Shown: in pieces, positions 4,645-17,603 of the stretch
How positions within the stretch are numbered: the first letter of the stretch is position 1
Layout: every line of letters begins with the position of its first letter
Assembly (NCBI RefSeq): GCF_945862485.1
Contig: NZ_CAMAYF010000009.1
Coordinates: 1-64,000, forward strand
Length of the DNA stretch: 64,000 nt
DNA from: Sphingorhabdus sp. EL138
Lineage (GTDB): Bacteria; Pseudomonadota; Alphaproteobacteria; Sphingomonadales; Sphingomonadaceae
Direction: 5' to 3'
Notes under the pieces: generated by a model
The model's input: only the letters and a program-made list of their open reading frames with translations
Databases searched by the model: none
What the model was told of the DNA's origin: nothing
Program-made: the position numbers and the translations under genes

Positions 4645-6885
4645 CTATCCCTCAATCTTCGAAAAATCGGCCACGCGGCTGACCGCATCGCGGAACCGCG
4701 CGAGTAAGCCCAAACGAAACGCCCGCTTGGCCGGATCCGGATCATTGACCATCACGCCTTCAAAAAAGGCATCTATAGGCGCGCGCAAAGTCGCCAATGC
4801 CGCCATTGCGCCTTCGAAATCTTCGACGGACAAGGCGGCAGCGGCCTTGGGCTCCGCCGCGTCAAGCGCAGTGCGGAGAGCACTTTCGTCGCCACCCAAG
4901 TCCGCGTCGCTCCAGCGTAGGCTGGAGCCTATCTCGTCTGTCGTTTTAGACTGTGACACGTCATGGGCCCCAGCCTGCGCTGGGGCGACGGACGTTTTTT
5001 CTGCACCGTCGGCCTGCTTCAATATGTTCGCCGCACGTTTATACGCCGCCAACAGGTTCGCACCCTCAGCGGTCGTGATATAGGCCTGCAAAGCCTTCAC
5101 CCGCGCCAGCAGCCGGACAAGATCATCCTCACCGCCAAGGCTAAAGACCGCGTCGATGAGGTCGTGGCGGACGCCAGCTTCGCGTTGTTGGACTTTTAGG
5201 CGGTCGGCGAAGAACTTCTGAAGTTCACCGATGATTTTGGGAGTGCTTTCGAGGGGTTCAGGATAGGCGTTGTGAGGCTTATCCCAAGCGTAACCAATCT
5301 GAATTTGGTTCCAAGATTGAGACCAAAACCGGCGCTTAGTGATGTCCATCACAGATTCTTCTGGTCCGATAAAGTTGATTAAACCAGCGAGTATAGCGGC
5401 TATATCGAAGCGAACATTATTCGTCTGAAGCAGGGCCAGCACACCGAAGGCTGAGCGCCTGAGTGCGAACGGATCTTTGGAACCTGTTGGAGCTTGGCCC
5501 ATTGCAAAAAACTGGGCAATACTATCCAACTTATCCGCCAAACTCACCGCCACCGTCACCGGCGCAGTCGGCACATCATCGCCCTGCCCGACGGGCTTAT
5601 AATGGTCGCGAATGGCGTCGGCGACGGCGTCGCTCTCACCTTGCGCGCGGGCGTAATAGCCGCCCATGATGCCCTGCAATTCGGGGAACTCGCCGACCAT
5701 GCCGGTGACGAGGTCAGCCTTGCACAAACGCGCCGCGCGTTCGGCGGCATCGGCAGTCGCGCCCTTGACGATACCCTCTTCCACCAGCCAACGTGACAGC
5801 TTAGCAACGCGTTCAACCTTATCGGCAACGCTGCCCAATTTTTCGTGGAATGTGATCTGCGCCAATTTCTGCGCTTGGCTATCCAGCGCAACCTTAAGGT
5901 CCTGTTCCCAGAAGAATTTCGCATCGGACAGACGCGCGGCCAGTACCTTTTCATTGCCTGCAACAATCGCTGCGCCGCCATCATGCGCATCAATATTCGC
6001 GGTGCAGACAAAAGCGTTGGCAAGCTTGCCAGTGCTGTCATGACAGACAAAATATTTCTGGTTTACGCGCGCGGTCAATTGAATGACCTCTTGCGGCACG
6101 TCCAGAAATGCGGCGTCGAAGCGGCCAAGCATCGGCACAGGCCATTCGGTCAGGCCCGCATTTTCGATGACCAGACCTTCATCTTCCACCAAGGTCAGGC
6201 CAGCAGCCTGTGCCGCCGCCTTTGCACCGTCACGGATGATACGGCAGCGTTCGGAAAAATGGACGAGGACATAAGCAGCGCGCAGCTTCTCGATATAATC
6301 GCCAGCGTTGCCGACGGTAATAGCACCGCTGTGATGGAAGCGATGACCCATCGTCTCCGCGCCGCTGACAATGCCGTCAATGTCGCAATGCACCACCGCA
6401 TCGCCGAGCAAAGCTACAATGCCCTGCAATGGGCGCACCCAGCGCAGGCTTTCGGTCGAAACCGATGCTGCGCCCCAGCGTTGCGATTTCGGCCATGGGA
6501 AGGCGCGGATGATCGCGGGGATCGCCTCTGCCAAAACATCTGCCGTCTGACGCCCTGCCTTTTCAACTACCGCATAATAGACGCCATCGCGTTCGACCAA
6601 CTGGTCTTGCGAAAGGCCGCTTTTTCGCAGAAACCCTTCCATCGCCTGCGGCGGCGCACCGACCTTTGGCCCTTTCGTCTCTTCAGACACAGCCTCAGTC
6701 GCCAATGGCAAGCCAGTCGCGATCAACGCAAGACGGCGCGGCGTGGCAAAAACTTCGACCGACGCTGCAGAAAGCCCAGCCTTGGTCAACGCATCGTTAA
6801 ACAGGCGGGCCAAGTCTTCCTTGGCCTTCACTTGCATCCGCGCAGGGATTTCTTCGGAGCGCAATTCAAGCAGGAAGTCGGTCAT
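4645..6885 (-). CDS. glyS: glycine--tRNA ligase beta subunit, with in-frame repeat insertion
   Basis: A 746-residue beta subunit of the alpha2beta2 bacterial glycyl-tRNA synthetase, longer than the roughly 690 residues usual for the family. It supplies tRNA binding to the catalytic alpha subunit; GlyQ and GlyS together charge tRNA-Gly. The start at ATG 6885 ([17 protein letters not shown], a hallmark N-terminus) overlaps the glyQ TGA as ATGA, so the two are coupled; the longer frame is not needed. The extra length comes largely from about residues 630-662, which are encoded by an 86-nt inverted-repeat element (4905-4990) that keeps the frame open. The insertion sits in the C-terminal DALR-like anticodon-binding region, probably as a surface loop. 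No stop or frameshift is seen, so the protein is probably functional. Confidence 0.96.
4905..4990. repeat. REPIN-like palindromic element inside glyS
   Basis: Two 28-nt arms (4905-4932 and 4963-4990) are inverted copies of each other with 24 of 28 bases identical and all four differences transitions. Each arm folds on its own into a hairpin (CTCCAGC/GCTGGAG at 4910-4927 and CCCCAGC/GCTGGGG at 4968-4985). Two REP hairpins facing each other is the architecture of a REPIN. It is translated as part of GlyS. Confidence 0.85.
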
Positions 6886-7769
6886 ACTGCCCACCCATTC
6901 TTTTCCATCCATGCTTGGCAACTGCCTTTGGCAAGGTCGCGGACGCGGCCCATATAGCTTGCGCGTTCCTGCACAGAAATAACGCCGCGCGCTTGCAATA
7001 TGTTGAAGATATGGCTCGCCTTGATCGCTTGCTCATAAGCGGGAATGGGCAAAGCATGTTGCAGGCAACTTTCGCATTCTGCCGTCGCTTTTTTGAACGC
7101 ATCAAACAACATGTCGGTGTCGGCAACTTCGAAATGATAGGTGCTCATCTGCCGCTCATTTTCGCGGAAAATGTCCCCATAAGTCACCGCCGGACGATCC
7201 GCCGTTGCGTTGTTATACACAAGGTCGAAAATGCTGTCCTTGTTCTGGATATACATCGCCAGACGTTCCAGACCATAAGTCAGCTCACCCGAAACGGGTT
7301 TGCAGTCAAAGCCGCCCATTTGCTGAAAATAGGTGAACTGCGTCACCTCCATGCCGTCGCACCATATTTCCCAGCCAAGGCCCCATGCGCCCAGCGTTGG
7401 GCTTTCCCAGTCATCTTCGACAAAGCGGATGTCGTGGAGCAAAGGATCAATACCAATCGCCTTTAACGAACCGAGATACAGCTCCTGCAAATTGGGCGGG
7501 CTTGGTTTCAGGATTACTTGATATTGATAATAAGCGCCCAGCCGATTGGGGTTTTCGCCATAACGGCCATCGGTTGGTCGGCGTGATGGCTGCACAAAGG
7601 CGGCGTTCCATGGGTCCGGCCCCAGCGCGCGCAGGGTCGTGGCCGTGTGGAACGTGCCAGCACCCATTTCCATGTCATAAGGCTGCAATATCGCGCAACC
7701 CTGCTTACCCCAATAAGCATGAAGCGTGAGGATCAGATCCTGAAAACTAAGTGGAGCAACGTCGGACAT
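6882..7769 (-). CDS. glyQ: glycine--tRNA ligase alpha subunit
   Basis: A 295-residue class II synthetase catalytic subunit, standard length. It activates glycine with ATP and transfers it to tRNA-Gly together with GlyS. Family hallmarks include [14 protein letters not shown] at the N-terminus, [14 protein letters not shown], and [19 protein letters not shown], which form the class II active site. The start is ATG 7769. Its stop overlaps glyS by 4 nt. The 155-nt region between it and the XRE gene at 7925 must contain the promoters of both divergent units. Confidence 0.98.
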
Positions 7770-16262: not shown

Positions 16263-16874
16263 ATGAGCGATCAGCTGACATTGTCGGCAGAGACGCGCGA
16301 TCGGGCAGGCAAGGGAGCCTCCCGCGAATTGCGTCGTCAAAACCGAGTGCCCGCCGTCATTTACGGCAACAAACAAGAACCCGAACTTATCCACGTTGAA
16401 GAAAAGGCGCTCGTCAAATTGTTGATGACTGGCCATTTTTCTAACAGCGTCGTCGAGATCGAACTTGGTGGCAAAAAACAAATTACGATTCCAAAGGATG
16501 TTGCCTTTCATCCGGTCAGCGATCGTCCAACACATGTTGACTTCCTGCGCATCGTCAAGGGCGCAAAGGTCGATGTTGAAGTTCCCGTGATTTTCGTCAA
16601 CGAAGACGCGTCACCCGGCCTGAAGCGCGGTGGTGTTTTGAACATCGTGCGTCATGAACTCGAACTGATCTGCGAAAATGACAAAATTCCTGACGACATC
16701 CAGATCGATGTTGCAGGCTTTGACGTCGGCGATTCTATCCACATCAGCCACGTAAAGCTGCCCAAGGGTTCGCAAAGCAAGATCACCGATCGCGACTTCA
16801 CCATTGCGACCATCGTTGCACCATCGGCGCTTAAGTCGAGCGATGGTGACACGACAGTCGAAGGCGAAGCGTAA
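16263..16874 (+). CDS. rplY: 50S ribosomal protein L25/Ctc
   Basis: A 203-residue long-form L25 (Ctc/TL5 type), which binds 5S rRNA. The N-terminal L25 domain has [26 protein letters not shown], the standard 5S-binding motif, and a C-terminal beta domain (about residues 95-190) as in TL5. The start ATG 16263 has TTTGGAGAATCAAC upstream. It precedes pth, the usual rplY-pth pairing, but here a compact repeat cluster (16893-17021) separates them. Confidence 0.97.
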
Positions 16875-16892: not shown

Positions 16893-17021
16893 CCCCTCCC
16901 GCGTGCGGGAGGGGAGTTTTGTCTTTGGCTCTGTCCGGGGGACAGAGCTACAAAACTGGGAGGGTGAGGGAGCGCGTGGCAAGAGTCACCCGCCCCCAGC
17001 CCCTCCCGCCTGCGGGAGGGG
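16893..17021. repeat. cluster of three hairpin repeats between rplY and pth
   Basis: Two near-identical hairpins, each CCCCTCCCGC paired with GCGGGAGGGG around a 2-nt loop (16893-16914 and 17000-17021), flank a third, GCTCTGTCC/GGACAGAGC (16928-16948), which is itself bracketed by AGTTTTGT and ACAAAACT. The layout resembles a small REP/MITE-type composite. The 3' arm of the last hairpin contains GGGAGGGGAG, the only plausible ribosome binding site for pth. Confidence 0.8.
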
Positions 17022-17030
17022 AGACCAATC

Positions 17031-17603
17031 ATGCAATTATGGGTAGGTCTCGGTAATCCAGGCGCCACCTATGCGATGCACCGCCACAATATCGGTTTCA
17101 TGGCGCTTGATGCGCTGGCCGAAATTCACGAACTGCCGCTACCTGCCAAGAAATTCTTGGGCTGGGTGCAGGAACTGCGGCTTGGCTCCAACAAAATCAT
17201 CCTCTTAAAACCCGCAACGTTCATGAACGAAAGCGGCCGCAGTGTGCGCGCCGCGATGGATTTCTACAAGCTTGAACCCAAGGATGTCACCGTCTTTTAC
17301 GACGAGCTCGACCTTGCCCCATTCAAGGTGAAGGTTAAATTTGGAGGCGGCGCGGCGGGCCATAATGGCATCCGTTCGATCACCGACCATATCGGCGCAG
17401 ACTTCCGTCGTGTCCGTTTGGGCATTGGCCATCCCGGCAACAAAGACCGCGTCACCGGCTATGTCCTCGGCAATTTTCACAAGAGCGAGATTGACGATCT
17501 GGCCGATTTACTCGGCGCTGTATCCGCCGAAGCCGATTGGCTGGCCAAGGGCGATGACGTCCGCTTCATGAACGACGTCGCCATGCGGTTGCAGCAGGAT
17601 TAA
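17031..17603 (+). CDS. pth: peptidyl-tRNA hydrolase
   Basis: A 190-residue Pth, standard length. It releases peptides from peptidyl-tRNAs that drop off ribosomes. Hallmarks are LWVGLGNPGATYAMHRHNIGFMALD with catalytic His about 20, the KPATFMNESGRS motif, and the FYDELDL / GGGAAGHNGIRSI segments. The ATG at 17031 has its Shine-Dalgarno (GGGAGGGGAG) inside a repeat hairpin, so translation may depend on opening of that hairpin. It usually follows rplY and often precedes ychF; here an SDR gene intervenes. Confidence 0.97.
   Translation: MQLWVGLGNPGATYAMHRHNIGFMALDALAEIHELPLPAKKFLGWVQELRLGSNKIILLKPATFMNESGRSVRAAMDFYKLEPKDVTVFYDELDLAPFKVKVKFGGGAAGHNGIRSITDHIGADFRRVRLGIGHPGNKDRVTGYVLGNFHKSEIDDLADLLGAVSAEADWLAKGDDVRFMNDVAMRLQQD

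Follow-up and report, generated by a model that had tools for sequence, protein, structure and literature searches.

The window, a stretch of 64 kb from a draft genome (G000; 2.18 Mb in 55 contigs), carries on its minus strand the gene for the beta subunit of glycyl-tRNA synthetase, and a palindromic repeat, here called element A, lies inside the reading frame of that gene. The features that matter for the analysis are as follows:

4645..6885, minus strand: glyS, glycyl-tRNA synthetase beta subunit, 746 aa, ATG at 6885 (Pfam PF02092, E 8e-185)
4905..4990, no strand assigned: element A, an 86-nt palindromic repeat at site S2, whose minus-strand translation is GlyS residues 632-661
4905..4932, plus strand: arm 1, with CGTC tag, 8-bp stem, 4-nt loop and tail
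4933..4962, no strand assigned: 30-nt spacer separating the arms
4963..4990, minus strand: arm 2, with CGTC tag, 8-bp stem, 4-nt loop and a tail starting CCA
5743..5772, minus strand: site S1, residues 372-381, a loop of the HD domain, empty in the window GlyS, whereas relatives have repeats of other classes there

The glyS frame is also open from a longer TTG start at 6921, and the relatives of its product in the PDB are 7yse and 7eiv. Over about residues 500-556 the gene does not align with that of the close relative G019, while the remainder is 83-95% identical; judged from the sequence, this suggests recombination within glyS.

An earlier description of this DNA, made from the letters alone (the sequence-only reading), had proposed two inverted 28-nt arms, and the comparison of arm 1 with the reverse complement of arm 2 bore this out: 24 of the 28 positions are identical and all four differences are transitions. 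In a scan for inverted repeats (spans up to 130 nt, threshold score 14), element A was the best of the window with a score of 18; one more repeat, at 16893-17021, passed with a score of 17, none passed in three shuffled windows, and a repeat-finding program reported no repeats. Each arm folds singly, as had been claimed (z -4.5 and -3.2), and the whole element folds as one hairpin (z -7.3 as DNA; -52.6 kcal/mol and z -8.2 as RNA). The first pair of the stem is G-C, the tails read CCAT in arm 2 and CTAT in arm 1, the outer ends carry CGTC, and GTAG occurs within the element in the loop of arm 1 only. The second repeat of the window (CCCCTCCCGC...GCGGGAGGGG) is intergenic and resembles a repeat class found in GlyS and ValS of relatives; its flanking genes are presumably L25-like (16263-16874) and peptidyl-tRNA-hydrolase-like (17031-17603).

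Ten GlyS genes of the same genus (G005, G006, G007, G009, G014, G019, G023, G024, G027 and G033) are without element A: their alignments run up to about residue 650 of the 758-aa query and resume at about 673 with zero extra DNA between. The extra segment, placed beforehand at about residues 630-662 and expected to be absent from relatives, was thus found in frame at residues 632-661 and missing where predicted. The expected addition of ~30 residues stood in part: the element does code for residues 632-661, but the S2 linker measures 21 residues when empty and 46 when filled, a net gain of 25 rather than 30. Since 75 nt were gained from an 86-nt element, the host linker is ~11 nt short; the loss of a clean footprint counts against the explanation favoured below.

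Copies of element A, 84-86 nt long, lie at four places in G000 (C1:238049-238134, C14:28104-28187, C16:3038-3123 and C1:215811-215896), together with a 106-nt variant at C10:35885-35990 and fragments. Matches at E up to 1e-5 were found in 18 of the 45 genomes of the genus, its own included (17 of the 44 others); many of them cover query positions 1-86 and others are partial. The claim of a mobile-type repeat with inverted arms and further copies was thus upheld. A complete element was located at 33 loci, seven of which are GlyS (G000, G003, G020, G025, G026, G034 and G065); the other 26 have no clearly containing gene and are intergenic, within short frames or upstream of likely starts, a call made by reading open reading frames, without a family search. 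A match within a 514-codon frame (L161) is partial and looks spurious. That the insert might be an artefact of a draft assembly in 55 contigs is contradicted by its identical position in seven genomes, and is extremely improbable. When 23 other copies were read in the two frames that match GlyS, one per orientation, 17 and 15 were free of stops; element A is thus mostly stop-free in a GlyS-type frame, so that a tolerant loop can readily capture it.

The placement of the insert was examined on structure. In the AlphaFold2 model of the window GlyS, mean pLDDT is 89 overall, but only 39 for residues 631-640, 43 for 641-650 and 61 for 651-660, as for a low-confidence and probably exposed loop; an exposed loop had been anticipated. 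In the model of G026 GlyS, which has inserts at both S1 and S2, mean pLDDT is 85; the S2 insert scores 40-57, the first part of the S1 insert 29-56, and the last ~20 residues of the latter prolong a helix in the model, at 79-89. Part of the low pLDDT may stem from the small number of relatives aligned at the insert. With that proviso, low model confidence suggests that the inserts are disordered, and element A is probably translated as a disordered, exposed loop; the insert-bearing GlyS protein itself is presumably made. Residues Arg617 and Asn620 of G000 align with Arg585 and Asn588 of E. coli GlyS, which contact C36 and A37 of tRNA-Gly according to the available part of PMC9908026, and element A starts twelve residues past Asn620, in the anticodon-binding domain. 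Site S1 lies between the residues matching E. coli Arg367 and Lys394, within the HD domain, to which the same partial source (PMC9908026) assigns binding of the acceptor stem.

The GlyS comparison was then widened to the genes of relatives, the best 80 of 585 named-contig loci and 20 further stretches (order-level genomes fetched: 17 of 24). Repeat-type insertions, recognised by peptide classes, were present in 50 of 85 ingroup GlyS genes of this sample, with its best 80 of 585 loci: 37 at S1, 30 at S2 and 17 at both. The idea that in-frame capture by this synthetase was an unusual, lone case therefore did not survive; rather, sphingomonad GlyS has taken up insertions over and over and is a recurrent landing site for repeats. 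Eight insert peptide classes were distinguished across the two sites in the same sample, the classes being our own peptide patterns and drawn from no database; in this count L066 (which shares its GlyS gene with G006) and L067 were dropped as duplicates, G041 was counted, and the S1 stretch of G013, which is partly N, was scored by eye. Among deeper members of the order, no repeat-type insertion was found in 16 GlyS genes (the 17th, G041, was read in the wrong frame). S1 and S2 carry different peptides depending on species, and one class occupies both sites in each of L074, L077, L087, L093, L103, L107, G026 and G036.

Many of these peptides are translated inverted repeats. In a test for inverted repeats against 200 shuffles, the long stretches of the order outscored every shuffle in 29 of 39 cases at S1 and in 23 of 46 at S2 (with L067, identical to G025, counted twice in each), compared with 1 of 64 short stretches at S1 and none of 57 at S2; L071, L073 and L106 are class members that fail to do so. 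Outside the order, palindromic stretches numbered 0 of 26 at S1 and 0 of 26 at S2. Random segments from the same genes beat 60 shuffles in 6 of 158 cases, and a different variable GlyS linker yielded 0 palindromic inserts in 72. The remaining long S2 stretches are mainly a TGEEDPL-type linker, other non-repeat linkers or weaker repeats. These data bear on the possibility that no insertion took place and that S2 is a naturally variable, GC-rich linker, palindromic by chance: S2 does vary without repeats too, and the TGEEDPL-type linker fills it in 12 genes (one more gene has the linker plus a repeat-type stretch). Yet the copies of the element elsewhere in the genome contradict this possibility, and the shuffle tests, the non-palindromic short linkers and the empty result at the other variable linker speak against it as well, leaving it very improbable. 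The TGEEDPL-like linker is itself conserved and patchily distributed in the family (L086, L096, L097, L100, L104, L105, L108 and others). In L050 (the GlyS of G021), the S2 linker is shortened, no longer palindromic and resembles a one-arm remnant of the G018/G031 repeat; it possibly records in-frame decay after capture.

On a GlyS tree from which the S1 and S2 insertion columns had been removed (124 of 130 rows used; L066, L067 and L123 left out as duplicates, L102 and L122 as incomplete and G041 as read in the wrong frame), presence or absence changed at least 22 times at S1 and 20 times at S2, counts that leave gains and losses undistinguished and have no shuffle baseline; class states changed at least 32 and 27 times, respectively.

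Four of the insert types, element A among them, were used as queries, and each proved to be repeated within the genomes that carry it. In the counts that follow, as in the matches of element A, both strands of a palindrome are included, so that places are fewer than matches: i) family B has 68, 64 and 91 matches in its carriers G031, G018 and G015, 53 in G028 and 14 in G030, and also 62 in G000 and 14 in G019, whose GlyS is without the insert; ii) the S1 family of G023, G024, G014, G007 and G026 has 7-15 matches in each of these genomes, zero in G000, G005 and G019, all without an S1 copy, and 3 in G027, the S1 of which is nevertheless empty; iii) the S1 family of G036 has 20 matches there and 10-28 in the genomes of L083, L085 and L077. 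Presence of a family in a genome therefore does not predict its capture by GlyS, as family B in G000 and G019 and the S1 family in G027 demonstrate. The HPELVSG-type repeat family, at 62 matches, outnumbers element A in G000. In G015, a family-B repeat that was tested as a palindrome (L269) is read in frame, in a frame other than that used in GlyS, inside an open reading frame which we take to be helicase-like.

Capture was also sought in other genes. In 54 named loci drawn from the best 80 of 585, insertions of at least 12 residues numbered 72 in 54 glyS genes (all kinds, not just repeats), one in 48 ppdK genes and one in 52 glyQ genes; the single ppdK insertion is palindromic, and the 12-residue glyQ insertion is not. 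The former, the only one in the 48 genes, is a palindromic insert of 38 residues in L099, a record titled Sphingorhabdus soli. For ppk, apart from one run of N, no insert was found in 30 genes of relatives (30 of 46 genomes examined). The first 30 ValS and PheT loci had no palindromic insert (for pheT, none in 28 usable loci, L277 and L289 being wrong ORFs), but these were the best-scoring loci and the sample was thus biased against inserts; it was extended by 11 ValS and 7 PheT stretches. In ValS, 4 of 41 genes then had a palindromic insert at a single site, of different classes and in four species (L360, L366, L369 and L370). In PheT, the gene of G010 (L371) carries an in-frame palindromic insert (VRVEPVETR...STSSGRT, ~43 residues longer) that was beaten by 0 of 200 shuffles, an insert that escaped the automatic count for PheT (0 of 37). 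The GlyS (at two sites) and ValS of G010 carry similar inserts, and the pheT of its relative G012 has none; the ValS of G025 holds split repeat-like pieces that do not beat all shuffles. The inserts in ppdK, pheT and ValS mean that the process is wider than GlyS, and those in 4 of 41 ValS genes and in the PheT of G010 rule out GlyS as the sole target. Among the six genes examined, GlyS is the main target and ValS a weaker second one.

Could the inserts be kept for a benefit, for example because a hairpin in the glyS mRNA or a peptide loop beside the tRNA-binding surfaces tunes the synthetase? Three observations point that way: i) the strong excess in GlyS relative to ppdK, glyQ, pheT and ppk, which tolerance alone fails to explain; ii) in all four orthologous sets of GlyS inserts, divergence is 1-4% in the arms as against 10-29% in spacer and gene; iii) of the third codon positions, 2 of 19 are variable in the arms and 83 of 138 in the core, a comparison that includes a misaligned stretch of G020. 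On the other hand, arms are no less frozen in seven family-B pairs of orthologous copies that lie outside GlyS (differences of 9/350 in arms, 41/189 in spacer and 452/1909 in flank), which contradicts a GlyS-specific constraint on the arms: the freezing belongs to that repeat and not to its place in GlyS. Moreover, G019, the nearest to G000 on the GlyS tree, is without the insert, and the inserts are mostly of low confidence in the models. A benefit thus appears rather unlikely, and tolerance is the more plausible state of these loops. Element A behaves otherwise: in four orthologous pairs outside GlyS, differences amount to 11/224 in arms, 10/119 in spacer and 69/1200 in flanks, so that no freezing is apparent, and this had first suggested a constraint specific to GlyS. 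In two of the seven family-B pairs about half of the spacer differs (14/27 and 15/27) and the arms are kept, which hints at exchange between copies.

Alternatively, the repeats may favour a DNA feature, such as a CGTC just ahead of the point of insertion. In L088, L089 and L097 the CGTC of the repeat coincides with a native ATCGTC (Ile-Val) of S1, which serves as a lead only. However, classes not tagged by CGTC occupy the same loops (as judged by eye), CGTC falls in the first nine bases of just 19 of 63 empty S1 sites, and GlyS has less frequent insertion sites too, around reference residues 186 and 282 and, in a single gene from beyond the order (L130), at 415. Targeting of this kind is therefore quite unlikely. 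The two loops might instead be a preferred home, into which unrelated mobile palindromes are drawn, or in which they are retained, because a hairpin or loop acts on the synthetase, the insertion points adjoining the anticodon-contacting helix and the HD domain; we regard this as an unlikely reading.

The explanation we favour, at a probability of roughly 85%, is serial capture of several unrelated, non-autonomous palindromic families that are tolerated in permissive loops of GlyS. Element A would be one copy of such a family, made of two CGTC-tagged REP units head to head, presumably mobile and presumably moved by an enzyme. Its point of entry would have been the loop that follows the anticodon-contacting helix in the anticodon-binding domain; with the frame left open and the loop tolerant of length, the gene would have remained functional and the repeat would appear in the protein as a disordered loop. 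Captures of this sort would have happened many times in sphingomonads, bringing several unrelated families into the same few GlyS loops.

Under serial capture, what looked like a rarity, namely selfish repeats translated into protein, becomes a repeatable natural experiment, in which many separate insertions of several classes have entered one essential enzyme. With close relatives that have no inserts, the activities of filled and empty GlyS lend themselves to direct comparison, and the pattern offers a way to separate insertion preference from survival. It is also a warning that the lengths of GlyS in these bacteria differ in large part through repeat capture and not through domain evolution.

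Three known systems invite comparison. REPINs consist of two inverted REP arms and a spacer, are repeated in related genomes, have GTAG at the REP end and are served by the RAYT Y1 transposase. Element A likewise has two inverted arms and a spacer and is repeated in related genomes, but its outer ends are CGTC instead of GTAG, and a search for the RAYT-type Y1_Tnp family PF01797 gave no match in G000 (assembly 96.6% complete), as against 5 of 14 control genomes. Over 61 genomes, PF01797 was found in ten, and of the element-rich G006, G009, G025, G026 and G034 only G025 had it. The proposal of a REPIN in the strict sense is thus not supported, and with no RAYT-type transposase found in G000 the element fits a head-to-head dimer of CGTC-type REPs better.

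Such CGTC REPs, in the available part of Di Nocera 2013 (PMC3733652), have a terminal CGTC, a stem of 8-9 bp, a loop of 4-5 nt and a CCA-like tail, form head-to-head dimers with spacers mostly of 20-100 bp, are mostly alphaproteobacterial and are reported without a dedicated transposase. Element A shares the terminal CGTC, with its 8-bp stem, 4-nt loop and CCA-like tail, is a head-to-head dimer with a 30-nt spacer and CGTC at both outer ends, and is repeated in its genome. It differs in that its stem opens with G-C, whereas A-T at stem positions one and two is found 'almost invariably' in the families described there (PMC3733652), a wording that leaves room for a G-C start. The same partial source (PMC3733652) places some CGTC REPs within ORFs, those of tRNA synthetases from E. 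litoralis and S. alaskensis among them, notes different REPs at about one site in recB of X. campestris and X. oryzae, and assigns RPE-4 and RPE-6 to CGTC families; in that part of the account no synthetase is named, and repeated capture at a fixed loop by several families is not described.

The parallel drawn earlier with the palindromic elements of Rickettsia also finds support (PMC2229807 and PMC3733652, as far as their available parts go). As in Rickettsia, where a guanylate kinase carrying an RPE is translated and active according to the available text of PMC2229807, element A is a palindromic repeat translated in frame within a conserved protein. The likeness is one of description, the bacterial order is different, and that portion of PMC2229807 does not describe recurrence at a fixed loop of one gene. 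Our literature searches returned no report of recurrent capture in GlyS, although the supplementary list of Di Nocera 2013 may contain GlyS. In-frame capture is known from Rickettsia and from Di Nocera 2013, sphingomonad tRNA synthetases included, and the kind of event is therefore known; what appears to be new is serial capture at fixed GlyS loops that adjoin tRNA-binding parts of the enzyme.
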